Positions 6,367 through 14,929 of a stretch of DNA of 64,000 nucleotides are shown piece after piece; the first letter of the stretch is position 1; each line of letters begins with the position of its first letter. The notes below the pieces were generated by a model, which saw only the letters and a list, made by a program, of their open reading frames with translations, ran no database searches and was not told the DNA's origin. The stretch comes from a bacterium (lineage in GTDB: Bacteria > UBP6 > UBA1177). A program made the translations under genes and the position numbers. The DNA lies in NCBI GenBank assembly GCA_017645765.1, contig JAGCNV010000055.1:1-64000 (forward strand), in the 5' to 3' direction.

Positions 6367-6891
6367 CTATGATTTAGTGTTGTATTCCTTGCTCTTTTCT
6401 TCAAGAAGTTTGAAATCGCAGCAGATTGCAGTCAAAAACCCGTAACGGCAGGAATTTTTATCGTATCGCTCCAAATAAATCGATAGCGATTTGTCTGTTA
6501 TCTCGACCCAATGTTTTCTTAAGTATCGGTATTCGTTCATTAAATAGGTGTCTTTTAAAGGATCGATAATGATTTTTTCCGTCATATTTCGCGGAACAGG
6601 AATCATGTTGTTGTGAAGCAGGTTCGAGATTTCTTCGCCGGAAGCTGTGATGAAAGTCGTTGTAAGCGGATTTCTTTTTTTAAGTCCTTTTTTCCGGCGT
6701 TCCGATGTGGTTTGGGAACTCAGCGGAATAACATACATTTTATTGTTGATGCGAACAGCCAAACCTACATAAGGTCTCCCTTTTTTCAGGCGGACGCGAC
6801 TATCAAAATTGTGAAGATACGAAAGATATTCGCTGTCAACTTTCACTATTATCGGGGAAGTTTGTTTAATATCGGAATCCAATAATTTCAT
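6367..6891 (-). CDS. toxN: Type III toxin-antitoxin toxin, ToxN/AbiQ family (full length)
   Basis: 174 residues, the usual ToxN length (PF13958). Seen: VKVDSEYLSYLHNFDSRV, GRPYVGLAVRINNKMYVIPL-SSQ in the N-terminal half, then NNMIPVP, and the final helix FLTAICCDFKLLEEKSKEY. ToxN proteins are RNases held inactive by a small repeat RNA. The ATG at 6891 has a weak AGG site eight bases upstream. Directly upstream are a terminator, a short RNA body and a promoter, the usual order of a type III locus. Defence role (abortive infection) is known for the family and inferred here. Confidence 0.9.
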   Translation of the reverse strand: MKLLDSDIKQTSPIIVKVDSEYLSYLHNFDSRVRLKKGRPYVGLAVRINNKMYVIPLSSQTTSERRKKGLKKRNPLTTTFITASGEEISNLLHNNMIPVPRNMTEKIIIDPLKDTYLMNEYRYLRKHWVEITDKSLSIYLERYDKNSCRYGFLTAICCDFKLLEEKSKEYNTKS

Positions 6892-6902
6892 AAAAACTAC
6901 CT

Positions 6903-7001
6903 AAAAAAAAAGGCTTTCCGAAGAAAGCCTCATTTTGAATCGTCCACTGAGCAGGACCACTCTTTAGTTCGGTAATATACTCAAGAATATTGTTTTGTCA
7001 A
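6903..7001 (-). ncRNA. toxI: ToxI-like antitoxin RNA 1 with its promoter and terminator
   Basis: Leftward reading: -35 TTGACA (7001-6996), 16-base spacer, -10 TATATT (6979-6974), short RNA body, then terminator hairpin AGGCTTTC-TTCG-GAAAGCCT (6930-6911) with eight T. The toxin start follows 11 bases later. The body (about 6967-6931) has only one unit, with a GTCCTGC...AGTGGAC...TTCAAAA pattern that matches the three units of toxI2 (14620-14720) at the same landmarks. Most known type III antitoxins have about two or more units, so this is unusually short. Confidence 0.7.
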
Positions 7002-7027: not shown

Positions 7028-7180
7028 TTATTTTATTGTGTCTTGTTTTGACCGAGCACGGGCTTGCCAAAAATTGAGTTGTTGCAAAATTTGCAACAAC
7101 CACTCGACATGCATTTGTCGGAGCGCGGGCGGCTCGCCTGCAGGTTTTTGAGGTTCAGCTTGCGACCACAAAAAGGACTT
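7028..7180 (-). ncRNA. Candidate structured transcript beyond the CRISPR array (unproven)
   Basis: Lies directly downstream, leftward, of promoter copy A, with predicted start near 7174. Leftward it contains a GC-rich GAGC/GCTC stem, a CGACA/TGTCG hairpin (near 7102-7117) and an 11-bp near-perfect palindrome GTTGTTGCAAA/TTTGCAACAAC (7100-7078) followed by CAATTTTT, which may end transcription near 7068. If transcription continues, a 28-codon frame starts at 7114 (MHVEWLLQILQQ, ending at 7028) but it has no ribosome site. Existence of an RNA is inferred only from promoter similarity and structure. Confidence 0.35.
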
Positions 7181-7215
7181 ATTTTACTCACCTACTCAGG
7201 CATATAGCGCCTGAG
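7181..7215 (-). promoter_or_regulatory. Shared palindrome promoter, copy A, pointing away from the array
   Basis: Palindrome at 7195-7215: CTCAGGC, 7-base centre, GCCTGAG. Reading leftward, eight bases (TAGGTGAG) separate it from a TAAAAT hexamer (7186-7181). Same geometry as copies B, C and D. The bases at the -35 position are inside the palindrome and are non-consensus (CGCTAT), so activation by a bound protein, or repression through it, is likely. It matches copy B over about 38 bases and lies 30 bases from the far end of the array. Confidence 0.7.
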
Positions 7216-7244
7216 TCGAGAAAATCCGCGTTTTTTTAGTAAGT

Positions 7245-8160
7245 TTTGAGAATAGTAGAAATTTTAACGGTTTAGCAGCCGTATCGAGTACATTATTTCT
7301 CAGAATCTATCTACAATAGTAGAAATTTTAACGGTTTAGCAGCCAATAGGAGGTTAGACAATGACACTTTCAGATCTACAATAGTAGAAATTTTAACGGT
7401 TTAGCAGCCAGATTCTTAATGGAGAACTTCATACTAATCTACAATAGTAGAAATTTTAACGGTTTAGCAGCTACAGAAAGGGGTGTAAGTAGAAGGAAAT
7501 CTACAATAGTAGAAATTTTAACGGTTTAGCAGCCGGTTACTCCGTCATTTCTAAACTATGATCTACAATAGTAGAAATTTTAACGGTTTAGCAGCAATTA
7601 AACGGAGGTATCATGAACAAAACATCTACAATAGTAGAAATTTTAACGGTTTAGCAGCAACAAACCGAAATCAAAGCGATTATCGCCATCTACAATAGTA
7701 GAAATTTTAACGGTTTAGCAGCGTGTACTTGCAACATTAGATATATTGCTATCTACAATAGTAGAAATTTTAACGGTTTAGCAGCGTAGATGACATGGTC
7801 ACCATGATAGCATCTACAATAGTAGAAATTTTAACGGTTTAGCAGCCGGGCGGTTTTATCGCAGCTTTTGGCGTATCTACAATAGTAGAAATTTTAACGG
7901 TTTAGCAGCATGTTTTTTATAACACAGTATGGAGCCTATCTACAATAGTAGAAATTTTAACGGTTTAGCAGCTATAAGAACACATAAAGAAGAATACAAA
8001 AATCTACAATAGTAGAAATTTTAACGGTTTAGCAGCCTTATGCCGGAACCGGCGCGAAAGAACATCTACAATAGTAGAAATTTTAACGGTTTAGCAGCGC
8101 AGCTTGCCCTTTATATCCCGGATGTATCTACAATAGTAGAAATTTTAACGGTTTAGCAGC
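7245..8160 (-). CRISPR. Type V-A CRISPR array, 15 repeats and 14 spacers
   Basis: Repeat of 35 bases. In crRNA sense (minus strand) it begins GCTGCTAAACCGTTAAAA and ends TTTCTACTATTGTAGAT; the TCTAC/GTAGA stem with TATT loop is the Cas12a handle. Repeats (plus coordinates) start at 7245, 7309, 7374, 7437, 7499, 7561, 7624, 7688, 7751, 7812, 7875, 7938, 8002, 8064 and 8126. Spacers are 26-30 bases and all differ. Fourteen repeats are identical; the one at 7245 has lost the handle stem and is therefore the oldest, trailer-end copy. Transcription should run leftward from the cas2 side. Spacers 7344-7373 and 7596-7623 contain, on the plus strand, GGAGGT followed by ATG, as at a gene start. Confidence 0.98.
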
Positions 8161-8435
8161 CCTTGTTTTCAAAATGCGCTATAAACACATAATAAAATCA
8201 AGATGTTGCAGAACCAAATTTTGGATATCTTTTAGGGGGATATCCCCGTGAAAGATCAAAAAAATCGTGCTAAACCCTTTGCTGAAGCGGGTTTGAGCAA
8301 GAACCCACTTCTTTGGGAAGACTGAGGTTTGCTAAAAACCTAACTATTCTCAGTTGTGAATGAACCGTCAATTTTTACTACTAAACCGCGAGACCGAAAC
8401 TACATATTTTATGAAGCGAAGTCAAGACTTCATCA
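8161..8435 (-). promoter_or_regulatory. CRISPR leader between cas2 and the array
   Basis: 275 gene-free bases at the conserved-repeat end of the array, the expected place of the leader. The side next to the first repeat is AT-rich. A hairpin with GGATATC (8223-8229) and GATATCC (8239-8245) and another with AAACCC/GGGTTT (8272-8293) are present. On the plus strand, opposite to the array, three motifs recall the first bases of the repeat: TGCTAAACC (8268), TGCTAAAAACC (8330) and ACTACTAAACCG (8377). No clear consensus promoter was found. Confidence 0.7.
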
Positions 8436-8708
8436 TCACAAATACACGATATCCTGATCTCGATGAATAGCGTTTCCGTATTTTTTCAGTTTCACCTCGG
8501 AAACATCAAAAATAATAACGCTGTCACCGCCTCCGAATTTTCTGGAGTATTCGTTTTCAATTTTAAGAATGAGGTTGTCTATGACTCTGTTGGAGTTATT
8601 TACCTCATAAACAGAATATTGAAGGCGTATCGCACCGTTTTTTGTCAGCATTTTGGCAAATCTGCTGCGGAGTTTGTCATCGCTTATGTCGTAACTTATT
8701 ACTAACAT
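8436..8708 (-). CDS. cas2: CRISPR-associated endoribonuclease/integration protein Cas2
   Basis: 90 residues, normal for Cas2. It starts MLVISYDISDDKLRSRFAKM, with the conserved first-strand Asp (YDIS), then IRLQYSVYEV and a ferredoxin-like pattern ending IHRDQDIVYL. Cas2 forms the Cas1-Cas2 integrase that inserts new spacers at the leader end. Start ATG at 8708 coincides with the last base of cas1, so it is coupled to cas1. Last gene of the cas operon, next to the leader. Confidence 0.97.
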   Translation of the reverse strand: MLVISYDISDDKLRSRFAKMLTKNGAIRLQYSVYEVNNSNRVIDNLILKIENEYSRKFGGGDSVIIFDVSEVKLKKYGNAIHRDQDIVYL

Positions 8709-9688
8709 CAGGCAGTAAATTTAGGATAGTTTGTGACCGATTTTTTTTGCATGAAACAGCGATAATAATCCTGCACATACCTGAAAACTTCCATTTTATA
8801 AGGAATCAGCGCATCGAAAAAGACGCGGTAATAATCCTGGTTCTTTTCCAATTTCAAGAAATATTCACCCTTGCGGCAGTTAAAATCTTTTTCTGAGAAT
8901 TGCTTGCGGTTAAAGGCAGTTCGCACGGCTTTATCAACAATGCAGCGAAACGGTTCCATGATATCGCAGACAAGCGATTTTCGCTTAAACCAAGTTCTGT
9001 GAAAAATGCCGACATAAAGATCAAAACCGAACATTCTTAAAAACGATTCAAGGTAATTGAAAAGTATCGTGTAACCGATATCAAGTGTAACATTTATGAT
9101 ATCGCACTTTGTTCTCGGTCTTCTCGCAATCCAGTTCTGATTTTGAAAGTATGCAGAGAAATAGAGTTTTGAAGCCATTCCTTCAGCACCCATTAACTCG
9201 GAATAATCTTCAATATTTTCAATTGTTTTCATAATTGTCAACAACTGCGGCTTTGCCTTTTCGGTAAGCTCGTCCTTTTTTCTAGTATCCTGCAGGTTCT
9301 TGAGTTGATTTGCTATCTTGTTTGCAACGATTATTTTTGCGATAGAGATGTCGTTTTTATCAAATTGATACTGTTTCTGGTGAAGCAAGAAATTGGCTTC
9401 GGCATAGTTTGCCCAAAAGAAAACAGGTCTTAAATTCGGTTTCATGACAACCAGCGCAACCCCGTGTTTCTGGCATTTTTCGATCAAAGGCGTGGTTATG
9501 TGTATATGACCAACAACAAAGAGAGCCAGAATTTTCTGGAACGGCATTTTTGTTAAAGTTTTGGTTTCTTCGGAATTTTCCTTCTCTTCCTCAAGCAGCA
9601 GTTCTCCGTTGGAAACCCGCAAGTTGCGTTTGTTTACGCAGTTAATAACAAAAATTGTTCTGTATTCCAGATCTTTATGAGTAAACAT
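8708..9688 (-). CDS. cas1: CRISPR-associated integrase Cas1 (type V-A)
   Basis: 326 residues from the ATG at 9688 (MFTHKDLEYRTIFVINC); the longer open frame reads into cas4 and is not used. Seen: FVVGHIHITTPLIEKCQKHG-type N-terminal beta domain, then the helical catalytic domain with the metal-binding Glu in LMGAEGMASKLYFSAYF, and the His and acidic residues in GIFHRTWFKRKSLVCDIMEP. This is the DNA integrase of spacer acquisition. It overlaps the end of cas4 by 14 bases, so the genes are co-translated. Length fits the V-A Cas1 group. Confidence 0.97.
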   Translation of the reverse strand: MFTHKDLEYRTIFVINCVNKRNLRVSNGELLLEEEKENSEETKTLTKMPFQKILALFVVGHIHITTPLIEKCQKHGVALVVMKPNLRPVFFWANYAEANFLLHQKQYQFDKNDISIAKIIVANKIANQLKNLQDTRKKDELTEKAKPQLLTIMKTIENIEDYSELMGAEGMASKLYFSAYFQNQNWIARRPRTKCDIINVTLDIGYTILFNYLESFLRMFGFDLYVGIFHRTWFKRKSLVCDIMEPFRCIVDKAVRTAFNRKQFSEKDFNCRKGEYFLKLEKNQDYYRVFFDALIPYKMEVFRYVQDYYRCFMQKKSVTNYPKFTA

Positions 9689-10241
9689 TTTCCGTTTCCG
9701 TTTTGTCGCAAAGGTTACAATAAATACAGTGTTCGCATTTGTTTGGATTCGGCGTGAAATTCTCTGCCGGATCATAGTTTCTGAAGCGGGCAATAAACCC
9801 TTCAAACTCTTTTTCGTCCTCAGAATTTGGCATATCGACAGGAATCATTTTATTCGTGGATATTTCATAAAATGCAATACTTTCAACAGGAAATCCCATT
9901 TCACGCATACAAAACATCTGTGCCCAAAGTTGATAAATCTGTCCGCGGAATATCTTTTTTAACTGGTATTTGCGCTCTATCAGCTTCTTTCCTTTTACCT
10001 TGTACTGATCTATTTTTCCCATGATCCCGAAGCGTTCAGAGTAAACAGGCAGCGAGAGGAGAATGTCTGAACGGTTGGTTGAAGTCTTATTGTCCGTAGC
10101 CTCGTGAACCAGTTTTCCTCTTGTCTGAGGTGTGGCGTGATACATTGTTTCATCCGTATCCATATAAACATTGTGGAGATAGATGGAATATGGGCAAAAG
10201 ATGAAGTCGTTAAGTGTCGATATGGCGATGTAGTCGTCCAT
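9675..10241 (-). CDS. cas4: CRISPR-associated exonuclease Cas4
   Basis: 188 residues from the ATG at 10241, which overlaps the cas12a stop by one base (TAATG). Four iron-sulphur cysteines are visible: one in FIFCPYSIYL and three in NKCEHCIYCNLC near the C-terminus. The RecB-type nuclease core shows GKLVHEATD, GKIDQY and IERKYQ. Cas4 trims prespacers and helps choose spacers next to a correct PAM in systems with Cas1 and Cas2. Its presence implies that the locus can acquire spacers. Confidence 0.96.
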   Translation of the reverse strand: MDDYIAISTLNDFIFCPYSIYLHNVYMDTDETMYHATPQTRGKLVHEATDNKTSTNRSDILLSLPVYSERFGIMGKIDQYKVKGKKLIERKYQLKKIFRGQIYQLWAQMFCMREMGFPVESIAFYEISTNKMIPVDMPNSEDEKEFEGFIARFRNYDPAENFTPNPNKCEHCIYCNLCDKTETENVYS

Positions 10242-13200
10242 TAATCCAATCCTTGAGCATATCTCAACCACTCTTTATTGCTGATCGCCAGTTTGATTTT
10301 TGTCAAATCGTCGGCGTGCTTTATCTGCTCAACAACCCACAAGCCTTTACGGGCAATGTTGTAAGCACCGTTAGCATCGGCATTTTTAGGCAGGTTATTA
10401 CCACATGTACAACTGTCGTAGAACTCGCCTTGTGCGTTTTGCACGGGCGAAATCAGATAGTCGGTATCCGTGCCAGTGATGCTGTTTCGCATTTGCAGTG
10501 TCAGATGTAACAAGTGCAACATTTCCCTATAGAATGAAGCATCGCTTTGGTTGCAAATCTGTTCCTTAATATTACCATTCACGTCAATCTGATACTTCGC
10601 AAACAACTTCTTGATTCTTTCGGTCAAGTCAAACTCAACGCTGTCGAACTCATTGTTTTTCTCTGGATTGCGCTTTGTTTCAATGCGTGTTCCGTAGGTA
10701 CAGAGTGTCCATTTGGTCTGTGTGCCTTCGGCTTTGGTTGTGAAATTATCGTAGTCAAAAGCGAACTCAAACCAGCCTTTTGCCGAGTTTAAGCGTATGG
10801 TATCGAATTTCCCGAAGAACGCTTTTGCTTTCTCCATATTCTCGTACCGCGTATTGAATAAGTTCACAAAACCAGTTGTCGGGTCCATTTTGCTGGTATT
10901 CCACGCAGGAATGTAGAACAGGAATCCGTTTTGTTTGCCCATTTTCTGAAAACTTTCAAACTTGTTGGTCAACTGATATGCATTCAGCACTCCGCCCGTT
11001 GCGCCTGCGTCGAGTTTCTTATCCACAAGGTAGTTCAACTTGTCAATCAGCATTTTTTCAAACTTCTGATAAACCTGTTTCTCAACCTTTTGCCGTCCAC
11101 GCATAAAGCCAATATTCAAATCTTCAAGCACCACAATGGCGTTGTATTTCACCATCAGTTCGGCAATTTTGTGAACCACTTGGCTCATATAGCCTTCTTT
11201 CAGGTCCTTAATGTTCTCAATGGTCTGCCAACTGCGGCGGGCTTCGTCGCGCTGCTTCTCCTTGGCATCCAGCAAATCATGATAATTGGTGCAATAGGTG
11301 TTGCCATTATATTCGTTAACAATTTCGTTCAGAGAATATTGCTCAACGATATTGCCCTTCATATCGATGAGCGACAGGTAGAGCAAATGCCTTTCGCCGC
11401 GGTCGATACCGATGATGTGCGTGGCATTCGATTCCTTCAGATAGGCGTTCACCAGCGAGTTGATATTGTTGATTCCCGCCGCCTTGAAATTCATTGTAAT
11501 TGGCACGTGTAATTGGAATTTATCAACCATATAGCGACTGTCTTTTATCAAGTCGTAGGCAAACGTGCTTTCCTTTTTCTTGTTTTGAATGTTTTTGTTT
11601 GCAATCGCTTGGTTTGCAGGGTGCGTCGGCTTGTCAGCCCTCAAACTGTGCTTGCGGAAGAACACTTCTGCCTCGCCGTTCAGTTTGTACACCACATCAG
11701 CAAGATTTTTTTCGTCAAACAACGCCTTCCAATAAAGTGTGTGCATATTGGGCGTTCCCTTGCTGAAAGGCGAAAAATCCTTGTTGTAAATTTGGAACAG
11801 ATAGATTTTACCTTCGTCAACTAATTGGAATAATTGTTCTTTTGAAATCGGATCAAATTTAACTTGATAAGCTTGTTGATTAATGTGGTCTGTAAACTCC
11901 ACAAAAGATTTATATTCCGATGGATTTTTGAAACTAAACTGATAATCAGAATAGTATTCTCTTACTAAATGTATATAAAACTCAATATACAGTGCCAAAT
12001 CTTTTTTATTAAATGACGGACTTGATGTAAGATAAGACTGTTTTAATCTAATGTCATTGATTTCTCTTGGAAGATATGTGTTTTTCGCATTTTCCAACCT
12101 AACATTTTGTCCAACCAATGCACCTTCTTTTTCTTTTCGTCCATTAACTTTTCTTGTAATACCATCTATTCTCATAAGGTTTTGAACATTCTTCCCCATA
12201 TCACCGCCTTGAAGATACTTCATTATTGCCATTTCACTTCTTTCAGCAGGACATGACTCCAACTCATTCAAGCAAGTTCGATACATGGAATCAAGAATCG
12301 CCAAATAGTATAGTCCTTTATCATCTTTTAGAATAGCTCCCGAGTTTGCTTGTGCGTCAGGCCAACCATTCAATAATGTCGGTGTATCAAAGTTAAGTTT
12401 GATTTTCTCGTCCGAATACAGTTTTTTGGTCATACGGTTTCGCACCATATTATATAATGGCGTAATTTGGTCGAGTGTTTCCCATAACGGCGTGAATTCA
12501 CCATAGAATCGGCCATCTTTTTCACTTTCAGTACCGCAGTCAAGCAAAGGCTTTACAAAATGCTGCAAATCCTTGATGGCATCGAGCAAATTCTTGATTT
12601 TCTCAACATTAGTCTTGTCTTGCGAAAGATTTTTGTCTTCGGGATATTTAGTGTTGAGTAAGGTTTTAATCTCCGTGAAAGCGTTCTCAATCCGCGCGAA
12701 ATGGTTCAGTTTCTGACCATTATCATTGTCCTCTGCCCCCATTCCCACAAAATAATCTTCAATAGGTTTGAAATCTTCCACTTTCCCTTGCATTATGCCG
12801 TTAAGATAGGCGATGGAATAACTATCATGCAATTTTGTCATCCTTTTTTCGTACTCCTCGGCATCTTCATTTCTCTTTTGAGGATTGCTGGCTTTTAGGT
12901 CTTCCACAACTGCATTTCTAATGACCGACCAACTGCCAAAATGCTTTTGCGCAATATCAGTCAGTTGCAAATCATTGGGCAGGTAGATGTGTTCAAGGTC
13001 GAAGTCTTTGATGTTTCCCAACAAAGTTTTCAATGGATCAAAAACTTGCTCTTTCAAGTCTTGATAACATTTTCTGATGCTTTGCAGCATTTCATTATCG
13101 CTTTCAAACTCATCGGGCAACCACGAAATGGAATTGCGTTCGCTCAATATTTGCTTGAAAAGTGGCTTCAACTTGGGGAGTTTGTTACTCTTATCCTTTT

Positions 13201-14059
13201 GTTGATGCTGATTGTATAGATTTGTATGCTTATTCAACTCCCCAATAATGGCGTTATATACATCTATCTGTTTTTGGGCTAGTACTATTGAGAAATAATC
13301 CAATTGAAACATTTCCCCAACGGCGTTCACATTTAGTTCAAATGCCTTGTACACTTCATTAAAATGTGATGCCACCTCGCTTGCTGCAATTCTTTCAAAC
13401 ACATCCATGTTGTCAACAAACTTAGGCAAATTTTCGTCAATCATCCTGTGGGCAATGGAGGTTGCCTTGTCGTCTGCCACATACATATTCTTTCGGTTAT
13501 CATAAAAACCCACAAAATACGTTGTGAAATCATCAAATTGAGCAATGTCTTTTTGTATGTTTTCTTGAATCTGTTTAACAGCCTCATCTGTCAGGCTTTC
13601 ATTCCCTGGCATTTCACGAATTACATTCTCGTATTGAGGCATTTTGACAAATTTGGCCAAATCTTCCCTGATTAGTTCTTTTCCGAACAGCCGTTTGTAT
13701 TGTTCGCTCTTGGTAAACCTTTCCGAAATCTGTTTGCGCATCTCATCCTGCACTTTTGCCATAGCTTTCTTTTTCTTTTCTTTTCCGCTTGCATCGTTAG
13801 GATTGAGATTGTATTGCCTATAGAACTCATGTAATTTTTCAAAGTCCAATTTAAAGTTATTCAACATCTGATCGATGAAAGCCTTATGGTATTCATCAAT
13901 CACCTTTTTGACAGCTTTGTACGCAATGGCGCGCTCGTTATCACGCTCGATGATGCCATTTTTCTCAATGTTTTCTTTGGTTTTCCCAACAGGTTTAAGC
14001 TCAAACCTAAGAGTCTTGCTAAGCGAAAAAAGCCCCGTAAAATCAGAAAAATTACTCAT
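10241..14059 (-). CDS. cas12a: CRISPR effector nuclease Cas12a (Cpf1), type V-A
   Basis: 1272 residues from the ATG at 14059, which has GGAGG six bases upstream; a TTG four codons earlier is rejected. The N-terminus FTGLFSLSKTLRFELKPVGK is typical of Cas12a. The PAM-side WED/PI region is about residues 550-700, followed by YLFQIYNKDFSPFSKGTPN and LNGEAEVFFRKHSL. The RuvC catalytic residues are all present: Asp886 in GIDRGERHLLYL, Glu979 in VVLEDLNIGF, and Asp1228 in ADANGAYNIARKG. It should process its own crRNA and cut DNA beside a T-rich PAM. The 5' flank carries promoter copy B. Bases of about 11820-12400 (residues about 553-746) are clearly more AT-rich than the rest, which suggests a mosaic gene. 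Confidence 0.98.
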   Translation of the reverse strand: MSNFSDFTGLFSLSKTLRFELKPVGKTKENIEKNGIIERDNERAIAYKAVKKVIDEYHKAFIDQMLNNFKLDFEKLHEFYRQYNLNPNDASGKEKKKKAMAKVQDEMRKQISERFTKSEQYKRLFGKELIREDLAKFVKMPQYENVIREMPGNESLTDEAVKQIQENIQKDIAQFDDFTTYFVGFYDNRKNMYVADDKATSIAHRMIDENLPKFVDNMDVFERIAASEVASHFNEVYKAFELNVNAVGEMFQLDYFSIVLAQKQIDVYNAIIGELNKHTNLYNQHQQKDKSNKLPKLKPLFKQILSERNSISWLPDEFESDNEMLQSIRKCYQDLKEQVFDPLKTLLGNIKDFDLEHIYLPNDLQLTDIAQKHFGSWSVIRNAVVEDLKASNPQKRNEDAEEYEKRMTKLHDSYSIAYLNGIMQGKVEDFKPIEDYFVGMGAEDNDNGQKLNHFARIENAFTEIKTLLNTKYPEDKNLSQDKTNVEKIKNLLDAIKDLQHFVKPLLDCGTESEKDGRFYGEFTPLWETLDQITPLYNMVRNRMTKKLYSDEKIKLNFDTPTLLNGWPDAQANSGAILKDDKGLYYLAILDSMYRTCLNELESCPAERSEMAIMKYLQGGDMGKNVQNLMRIDGITRKVNGRKEKEGALVGQNVRLENAKNTYLPREINDIRLKQSYLTSSPSFNKKDLALYIEFYIHLVREYYSDYQFSFKNPSEYKSFVEFTDHINQQAYQVKFDPISKEQLFQLVDEGKIYLFQIYNKDFSPFSKGTPNMHTLYWKALFDEKNLADVVYKLNGEAEVFFRKHSLRADKPTHPANQAIANKNIQNKKKESTFAYDLIKDSRYMVDKFQLHVPITMNFKAAGINNINSLVNAYLKESNATHIIGIDRGERHLLYLSLIDMKGNIVEQYSLNEIVNEYNGNTYCTNYHDLLDAKEKQRDEARRSWQTIENIKDLKEGYMSQVVHKIAELMVKYNAIVVLEDLNIGFMRGRQKVEKQVYQKFEKMLIDKLNYLVDKKLDAGATGGVLNAYQLTNKFESFQKMGKQNGFLFYIPAWNTSKMDPTTGFVNLFNTRYENMEKAKAFFGKFDTIRLNSAKGWFEFAFDYDNFTTKAEGTQTKWTLCTYGTRIETKRNPEKNNEFDSVEFDLTERIKKLFAKYQIDVNGNIKEQICNQSDASFYREMLHLLHLTLQMRNSITGTDTDYLISPVQNAQGEFYDSCTCGNNLPKNADANGAYNIARKGLWVVEQIKHADDLTKIKLAISNKEWLRYAQGLD

Positions 14060-14084
14060 TTTTTCCTCCAAAGATGTTATATGT

Positions 14085-14135: not shown

Positions 14136-14170
14136 ATTTTACTCATCAACTCCGGCATATAGTGCCTGAG
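14136..14170 (-). promoter_or_regulatory. Shared palindrome promoter, copy B, upstream of cas12a
   Basis: Palindrome at 14150-14170 (leftward CTCAGGC, centre ACTATAT, GCCGGAG; one mismatch to the consensus), then eight bases (TTGATGAG), then TAAAAT (14141-14136). The transcript would begin near 14129 and carry about 70 untranslated bases before cas12a. The -35 position falls in the palindrome and is not a consensus hexamer. Copy A is nearly the same sequence over about 38 bases. Confidence 0.75.
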
Positions 14171-14259
14171 ATGAAATTTTTGTTCATATTTTGAACCAAA
14201 ACGACAAAAAAACCGAAAAATTATAGGGAAAAGCTGGTATGATGCAAGTTAACCACCGC

Positions 14260-14577
14260 TCAGATGCAAATAATCAGAGGATTTTTCTGAATTAGGCAAT
14301 CAGTTATTGCCCAATTAGATTCTAGTCTTATTTTCCGACAATTTTTCCAAAACTCTTTCAAGTTATCAACATCGTTGTTCTGTGTTTTGTGCTTCTCTTT
14401 TGCCGAATCCAACGGCACGCAGTATTTATGTTCGTCGCAAATGACAATAATACCCACAAACGGACGATTTTCTTTATGAATCTGCGGTGAAACCGACTGC
14501 ACTTTGTCGTCGGCATTATGCAGATAGCGGACATATTTCATGTCCAAAAAGTAGAGATTTAATCTTTCCTGCTTCAT
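14260..14577 (-). CDS. Truncated ToxN-family toxin with a palindromic repeat at its end
   Basis: 105 residues against about 170 for full ToxN. The N-terminal half is clear: LNLYFLDMKYVRYLHNADDKV, then ENRPFVGIIVICDEHKYCVPL and DSAKEKHKTQNN. The C-terminal half is missing. The last residues, LESNWAITDCLI, are encoded by a palindrome (14291-14315) of the family found in the DUF1016 gene (VESNLAIGDCQI there). ATG at 14577 with TAGGT upstream. The toxin is probably inactive because conserved C-terminal parts are gone. The antitoxin RNA upstream looks complete. Confidence 0.8.
   Translation of the reverse strand: MKQERLNLYFLDMKYVRYLHNADDKVQSVSPQIHKENRPFVGIIVICDEHKYCVPLDSAKEKHKTQNNDVDNLKEFWKNCRKIRLESNWAITDCLIQKNPLIICI
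14291..14315. repeat. Palindromic coding repeat in toxN2
   Basis: ATTAGGCAAT...ATTGCCCAAT, differing at only two of 25 positions from the copy at 3636-3660. It is translated in the same frame as in the DUF1016 gene (ESNxAIxDCxI), although the host proteins are unrelated. Confidence 0.8.
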
Positions 14578-14587
14578 TTTTACCTAC

Positions 14588-14756
14588 AAAAAAAGCCGTA
14601 TCAGTAAAAACCAATACGGCTCGAAATTTCCACTTCCGGTAGGACTCACCGCTTTTAAAGTTCCCACTCACAGTAGGGTTCACTGCTTTTAAAGACTCCA
14701 CTTAACGGTAGGACTCACTGATGGATGCAATATAATCATTCGCGAAGAAATGTCAA
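14588..14756 (-). ncRNA. toxI: ToxI antitoxin RNA 2: promoter, three repeats, terminator
   Basis: Leftward: -35 TTGACA (14756-14751), 16-base spacer, -10 TATATT (14734-14729); transcription from about 14722. Three tandem repeats of 35, 34 and 32 bases follow (14720-14686, 14685-14652, 14651-14620), each with GTGAGTCCTAC..., AGTGG and TTTAAAA or a variant. Then a terminator AGCCGTAT/ATACGGCT (14621-14594) with a T-run. This is the classic ToxI layout before toxN. The promoter has the same hexamers and spacing as toxI1. Confidence 0.85.
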
Positions 14757-14894
14757 ATTATTTTTTAGATTTTTTTCAATTTCATTTTGATTTTTAGAAA
14801 TTCGACCTTCATATCAGTATCTAACAGCTCCATTCCGACACAAACAACAACTGATTTTTGAAAAAATCACCGAAAAAAGTATGGTTTTTCTCAA

Positions 14895-14929
14895 CTCAGG
14901 CGGTATATGCCTGACTTCGCGAGTATGAT
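14895..14929 (+). promoter_or_regulatory. Shared palindrome promoter, copy C, upstream of the WYL regulator
   Basis: Palindrome at 14895-14915 (CTCAGGC, centre GGTATAT, GCCTGAC), eight bases (TTCGCGAG), then TATGAT (14924-14929), 33 bases before the WYL gene start. This position suggests autoregulation. The rest of 14757-14962 shows no gene. Confidence 0.75.

Follow-up and report, generated by a model that had tools for sequence, protein, structure and literature searches.

A ToxIN-like locus with a probably functional antitoxin RNA of a single unit

Can a toxin of the ToxN family be controlled by an antitoxin RNA that contains only one unit? The question is raised by the toxI1-toxN1 locus, which lies in a 64,000-nucleotide stretch of a bacterial contig (hereafter, the window). 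The initial annotation left two alternatives: either a one-unit RNA works with toxN1, or units have been lost and protection is supplied in trans by toxI2, a three-unit antitoxin in the same window. In the present analysis, the first alternative was supported, and the second, as a recent unit loss compensated by toxI2, was not. Judging from sequence comparison, toxI1-toxN1 is probably a working type III (ToxIN-like) module of which the antitoxin RNA naturally consists of one unit. The elements of the locus are as follows.

6367-6891, minus strand: toxN1, 174 aa, toxin of the ToxN/AbiQ family (matches to PF13958, AbiQ and PDB 4ato/4glk)
6910-6931, minus strand: intrinsic terminator between toxI1 and toxN1 (9-pair stem and T-run)
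6933-6965, minus strand: toxI1, single antitoxin unit of 33 nt, AAAGAGUGGUCCUGCUCAGUGGACGAUUCAAAA (landmark and core searches; length taken from the two tandem period-33 units of L086)
6933-6937, minus strand: CAAAA, 3'-terminal bases of the unit and probable site of cleavage (from the unit boundary in the two-unit L086)
6974-7001, minus strand: toxI1 promoter (-35 TTGACA, 7001-6996; 16-nt spacer; -10 TATATT, 6979-6974; 11 of 12 consensus matches)
7077-7101, minus strand: hairpin with T-run, upstream of the toxI1 promoter (hairpin and T-run call)

The promoter and the terminator sit where the initial annotation had placed them, and the order of promoter, RNA antitoxin, intrinsic terminator and toxin, as given by consensus matches, is that of ToxIN. 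The distance from the -10 box to the terminator stem was 43 nt by an automated measure, and with a transcription start assumed 6-7 nt downstream of the -10 box, about 37 nt would remain for the RNA. Because 0.7 promoter-like matches are expected per shuffled region, the promoter match is weak by itself; TTGACA and a TATATT-like box are recognisable in the Treponema copies (see below), the flanks of which have diverged. As for the hairpin at 7077-7101, the sequence differs in the genomes G003 and G006 and the pairing is kept (by eye), so that it may block transcripts arriving from the CRISPR array.

The landmark pattern GTG-N(1-4)-CCT-N(3-14)-AGTGG (with an optional extra C), which was composed after the units had been seen, occurs four times on both strands of the 64 kb, namely at 14718, 14683 and 14649 in toxI2 and at 6960 in toxI1, in agreement with the single copy against three that had initially been annotated. 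When up to three mismatches were allowed, the window contained a single copy of the 28-nt core of the unit (0.00 expected). In the local alignment of toxI1 with the toxI2 units, the best observed score was reached by 29 of 2,000 dinucleotide shuffles of toxI1. Nothing in the sequence pointed to a longer antitoxin RNA containing additional units. In L086 (Treponema genome G172), two tandem units with a period of 33 (28 of 28 bases matching in the best stretch) are joined directly after CAAAA; the segment in toxI1, which likewise ends in CAAAA, thus corresponds to one complete unit. Since the tandem array of the ToxIN family is absent and one unit only is present, toxI1-toxN1 should be regarded as a variant rather than as a plain ToxIN member. 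In the Rfam search, only a tRNA reached the gathering score in the window, and no ToxI match to E 10 was obtained at toxI1 or at the three-unit toxI2; therefore, Rfam cannot separate the two. A match of RAGATH-22 on the plus strand at toxI1 (26.4 bits; cut-off, 120.3; E 0.0089) was judged to be due to chance.

Neighbouring regions of the window also have to be considered.

7251-14071, minus strand: type V-A CRISPR array (array, 7251-8161) with cas2, cas1, cas4 and cas12a; a neighbour outside the module
14260-14577, minus strand: toxN2, truncated broken copy of 105 aa (PF13958 positions 2-67 only)
14619-14720, minus strand: toxI2, three units of another antitoxin class (landmarks at 14718, 14683 and 14649)

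Modules of the CreTA type, with an antitoxin built on a CRISPR repeat, are known (PMC8501985), and toxI1 is located directly downstream of the Cas12a array; toxI1 might then be a CRISPR-derived (CreA-like) antitoxin that uses the adjoining Cas12a. With up to three mismatches allowed, the end of the repeat, AATTTCTACTNTTGTAGAT, has 14 matches in the window, all of which fall within the array and none in toxI1, and we consider such an origin vanishingly improbable. By eye, a palindrome close to CTCAGGCGCTATATGCCTGAG was seen flanking the cas12a cassette on either side (about 7195-7217 and 14150-14171) and again upstream of toxI2 (about 14894-14916); these palindromes are possibly cassette borders.

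The toxin belongs to the ToxN/AbiQ family. It matches PF13958 over the full length (105 bits; cut-off, 25; E 5e-30), AbiQ (E 1.6e-29), PDB 4ato (E 4.9e-18) and PDB 4glk (E 2.8e-15), and no NCBIfam family was found at E 0.001. In an alignment of four rows, Ser58-Ser59 of ToxN1 were invariant (the correspondence to residues 52-53 was assigned by eye); the active-site residues considered for the family are Lys/Arg33, Thr52, Ser53 and Lys55. Whether the toxin is active is less evident from its residues. In the E. coli ToxN, toxicity is abolished when Lys55, located two places after Ser53, is changed to Ala (PMC8860590); the ToxN1 clade has Thr in place of Lys55, with Q-T after Ser59. An AlphaFold model of ToxN1 (from four rows; pLDDT 64, and below 50 at residues 60-78) was too poor to place an alternative lysine. 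Together with the toxN genes deleted or broken in several relatives, these features would fit an inactive toxN1 in a decaying relic, of which the number of units would be uninformative. However, the S/T-S-Q-T-T motif is common to all of the full-length homologues L081, L082 and L083, and the aligned segment of the Bacillus thuringiensis ToxN, which is described as an endoribonuclease (PMC5086642), likewise has no lysine at this position. Moreover, the substitutions in toxN1 (next paragraph) argue for function of the protein, and a relic is quite improbable in our estimation.

Conservation was examined in the 15 genomes of the window's genus and in 200 genomes of Treponema (the genus of G061, which holds L014). 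The toxI1 unit is identical at 33 of 33 positions in six of the 15 genomes. Two of them, G000 and G001, have a full-length toxN1 with 100% protein identity, and the two base differences between these genes are both synonymous. Full-length ToxN1 homologues (69-72% identity) were found in three of the 200 Treponema genomes, i.e., L081 (G248), L082 (G236) and L083 (G135), all of which carry the N1-type single unit. The unit pattern itself was found in seven Treponema genomes, once in six and twice in G172, whose toxin (L086) shows 44-45% identity; the six one-unit copies share 31-32 of 33 bases with toxI1 (counted by eye). In the comparison of N1 with L081, L082 and L083, pS was 0.77-0.86 (dS saturated) and pN was 0.19-0.21; between L081 and L083, dS was 1.43 and dN/dS was 0.046. 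These values are those of a toxin under strong purifying selection. Between the two genera, the terminator and the greater part of the promoter region have diverged, and the unit differs at only one or two of 33 positions (by eye). Selection on the 33-nt unit is indicated because it has remained nearly unchanged while the synonymous sites have become saturated; for the same reason, and because of the identity in six of the 15 genomes, the one-unit state of toxI1 is, on these comparisons, not recent damage. An older loss of units, before the diversification of the N1 clade, is possible, since two units are present in the nearest outgroup. In L081, L082, L083 and L084 (Treponema N1-type), an additional hairpin, about AAGACUGGAGACAGUCUU, lies between the unit and the terminator.

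In total, 13 N1-type loci were found via the unit (six in the window's genus and seven in Treponema), and 12 of them have one unit. The toxin is full-length in five of the 12 (G000, G001, G135, G236 and G248); the remainder comprises four loci with a toxN1 deletion, a broken frame in G061, an internal deletion in G218 and a gene cut near the contig end in G232. For the toxin fragment L088 (G115), no unit was found upstream within the stretch read. The frequency of such losses (toxN1 deleted in four of the six genomes of the genus with toxI1, and broken or cut in three of the six one-unit Treponema copies) counts against a working module. Viral contigs contained no ToxN1 relative (by a search that reaches close relatives) and no exact copy of the unit, and plasmid and phage records contained only distant ToxN (best 32% and 27% among the matches listed).

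The four genomes with a toxN1 deletion (G002, G003, G006 and G013; loci L072, L071, L069 and L068, in this order) have a solo toxI1, with the promoter, the unit (33 of 33 bases) and the terminator kept. The deletion runs from just behind the terminator to the last 48 bases of toxN1 and has the same junction in all four (three of the genomes lack 485 bases; the fourth lacks 486, with one T fewer in the T-run), which looks like one deletion event. Among the four copies, no change was seen in 132 bases of the unit, and 11 changes were seen in 240 bases of the promoter, eight of them in one genome; this difference is too weak to show selection on the unit after the loss of the toxin. The solo copies may be harmless remnants, or they may give protection if ToxN1 arrives again.

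With these data, the role proposed for toxI2 can be evaluated. According to this explanation, units were lost recently, toxI1 is a remnant, and toxN1 is checked in trans by the three-unit toxI2 RNA. The toxN2 gene is broken after about codon 76 (its relatives have open frames of 178-208 aa, and the similarity of toxN2 ends there), yet its three-unit antitoxin toxI2 is intact; toxI2 RNA would thus be free, and one Treponema genome, G135, also holds both kinds of antitoxin. Units like those of toxI2 were sought with up to three mismatches and were found in five of the 15 genomes of the genus, and in only one (G135) of the eight genomes with N1-type loci that were searched, i.e., those other than G000 and the four solo-toxI1 genomes. 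Full-length toxins of the one-unit N1 type thus coexist with toxI2-like units in G000 and G135; in the other three genomes that have such a toxin, G001, G236 and G248, this pattern search detected none (completeness was given for G001 only, 93%). Because three of the five genomes are without toxI2-like units, rescue by toxI2 is not generally needed, and toxI2 as a general protector against ToxN1 is unlikely. In addition, toxI1 is of a different antitoxin class from toxI2, and the CptI antitoxins tested did not rescue cells from non-cognate CptN toxins 35-44% identical to their own (PMC4627078). Taken with the one-unit state of 12 of the 13 N1-type loci and the conservation of the single unit over a large distance, these results make protection in trans after a recent loss very improbable. 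The single unit as the functional form is supported, since unit and toxin are both conserved past synonymous saturation, and one unit can suffice according to published tests of CptI and ToxI.

Those tests and the repeat numbers reported for related systems are not uniform. A single repeat of CptI was fully antitoxic (Rao 2015, PMC4627078). CptIN of Eubacterium rectale is thus similar to toxI1 in that one repeat can suffice when tested, and it is different in that the natural cptI has two 45-nt repeats and its toxin belongs to another family than toxN1 (PF13958, ToxN). ToxN is repressed by 1-1.5 ToxI repeats according to one review, in which about 90% of toxIN transcripts are stated to end at the terminator (PMC4147584). 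According to another, the Pectobacterium ToxI (ToxIPa) needs 2.5 repeats and antiQ needs at least 1.8, with 0.8 being inviable (PMC5086642); in the passages concerned, the two reviews disagree on ToxIPa. These minima, together with the weak pseudoknot and hairpin fold of the lone unit and the absent Lys55, count against the function of one unit. In comparison with the known ToxIN systems, toxI1-toxN1 has the same kind of toxin fold (PF13958; PDB 4ato and 4glk), the promoter, the antitoxin RNA upstream, the terminator between the genes, and a unit of about 33-36 nt with an A-rich end. The differences are that toxI1 has a single unit where those systems have about 2.8 to 5.6, that Thr takes the place of Lys55, and that a very stable alternative hairpin is predicted. 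Structured RNAs upstream of ToxN have been described from human microbiomes (HMP2_14852, 38 bp; HMP2_5421, 68 bp; HMP2_3156, 106 bp; PMC8040213). Like toxI1, they are short and directly upstream of toxN, and the 38-bp HMP2_14852 may be one unit long; unlike toxI1, they are from Clostridiales and Leptotrichia, and the passages of PMC8040213 that describe them do not discuss the number of units. The pseudo-ToxI of phage PhiTE is also a short ToxI-like element (1.5 DNA repeats), but it has no correctly phased unit and its locus was not antitoxic on over-expression (PMC3475682), whereas toxI1 has one full unit. Among the papers listed by text searches of open-access articles (main text), none was seen to describe a type III antitoxin that naturally has one unit.

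The initial annotation had suggested comparing the fold of the RNA with the known ToxI pseudoknots. Two folds were obtained for the unit.

6942-6962, minus strand: proposed H-type pseudoknot (S1, GAGU 6962-6959 with GCUC 6952-6949; S2, GUCC 6957-6954 with GGAC 6945-6942)
within the toxI1 unit, minus strand: rival nested hairpin (S2 kept; 6962-6959 paired with AUUC 6940-6937)

One additional G-U pair is possible inside S1. Depending on the limits, the pseudoknot score of toxI1 was equalled by 10 of 200, 289 of 3,000 (tight limits) or 351 of 3,000 (wide limits) shuffles, and the predicted pseudoknot of toxI1 is not convincing by itself. It does fit toxI1, and it is supported jointly with 24 other units: over the 25 units, which were chosen and trimmed by eye from several classes, the scores summed to 519, against 299 for the shuffles (sd 30; maximum of 200, 382). 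As this exceeds the highest shuffle, the modelled pseudoknot has support at the level of the whole family. On the other hand, the nested minimum-energy fold of toxI1 (calculated with ViennaRNA, in which pseudoknots are outside the model) was a hairpin of -11.8 kcal/mol that includes S2 and excludes S1, with a stability reached by none of 200 shuffles. Its z lay between -3.1 and -3.3 for the three folded one-unit variants of the N1 type, and z lay between 0.3 and -2.0 for the 13 other units folded; S1 alone is worth -3.4 kcal/mol. The active form of the unit might therefore be a stable nested hairpin and not a ToxI pseudoknot, which would be compatible with a naturally one-unit antitoxin. Against this, S2 and the landmarks are common to units that fit the pseudoknot, and the hairpin falls to -7.0 kcal/mol in L086, where S1 has the same score with partly different pairs. 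S1 of the third toxI2 unit, compared with that of toxI1, is changed on both sides at two pairs with the pairing kept (by eye). Since S2 is common to both folds, the protein could tip the balance. We regard the hairpin as the active form as doubtful, though well within consideration.

Is the one-unit antitoxin confined to N1? PF13958 was found in 16 of the 61 genomes searched, 15 of which are those of the window's genus. The genome G000 (2.65 Mb) has seven ToxN places, on the contigs C1, C94, C67, C73, C78 and C65, with several antitoxin classes. By eye, six antitoxin classes were distinguished in the genus: C1 (three units), N2 (three), C94 (two), C73 (one, with an extra internal hairpin in the unit), the L027-type (one) and N1 (one). 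The distance between promoter and terminator was 40-43 nt in the L027-type, 43 nt in the N1 of the window, 48-64 nt in the Treponema N1-type (with the extra hairpin after the unit) and 58-62 nt in C73; it was 74 nt in L086, 75-79 nt in C94, 106-107 nt in N2, 112 nt in L096 and 114 nt in C1 (L001 and L020). In this measure of 53 rows, the promoter or the terminator was not called in eight, the calls for L088 and L098 were false, and L015, L017, L022 and L090 gave long distances (132-170). The distances agree with the numbers of units assigned per class.

A tree of toxN was reconstructed from 42 distinct rows, each with an open frame of 155-217 aa, after removal of the 11 rows (of 53) that were cut, broken or contained a stop; sampling was focused on the window's genus and on Treponema and does not amount to a survey. 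The numbers of units were assigned on this tree by eye. One-unit antitoxins were present in 23 of the 42 rows, and three changes were needed on the tree, three being forced by the starred branches; long branches meet, and the deeper joins are unsure. The N1 clade was sister to the two-unit L086 (100/98), and the L027-type clade was sister to the two-unit C94 clade (99/98). By these assignments, one-unit antitoxins are in three separate ToxN clades. The C73-type toxN, with one unit of about 58-62 nt and an extra hairpin with a changing loop, is common in the genus (L004, L005, L016, L031-L034, L038-L041, L049 and L050). The other one-unit class, AAGGAU.UCGCGCCUUUGA..GCGA, which is sister to a two-unit class, was seen in L027, L028 and L030, and in L089, L091, L092, L093 and L095 of Treponema. 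Tentatively, these loci could represent a type III subclass that dropped the repeat array at least three times, with one unit per transcript and with array processing dispensable; the N1 unit would have its own hairpin and persist solo.

The following mode of action can be proposed for the one-unit module. From the promoter, a short RNA would be transcribed that begins at the unit or immediately ahead of it. Most of this RNA would end at the strong terminator, and a few transcripts would read through into toxN1; this ratio would produce an excess of the antitoxin despite one unit per transcript. ToxN1 would trim the RNA at the CAAAA end, a putative cleavage site, or merely bind it there, and one folded unit per toxin chain would keep the presumably toxic ToxN1 inactive.

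The toxin and the layout of the locus are those of ToxIN, and the natural one-unit antitoxin is new relative to the published definitions, since these require tandem repeats. A tandem array is demanded in PMC5086642 and PMC8860590, with five E. coli clusters having 3 to 5.6 repeats, and the generated sequences in PMC12804078 were filtered for tandem repeats; one-unit systems would be missed by published type III searches of this kind (PMC5086642, PMC8860590, PMC12804078). The solo toxI1 copies permit a test of antitoxin-only protection. A natural one-unit antitoxin would be the minimal system in which to study the inactivation of ToxN, and it can be used to test the need for array processing, for the number of units and for a closed ring of toxin and RNA.
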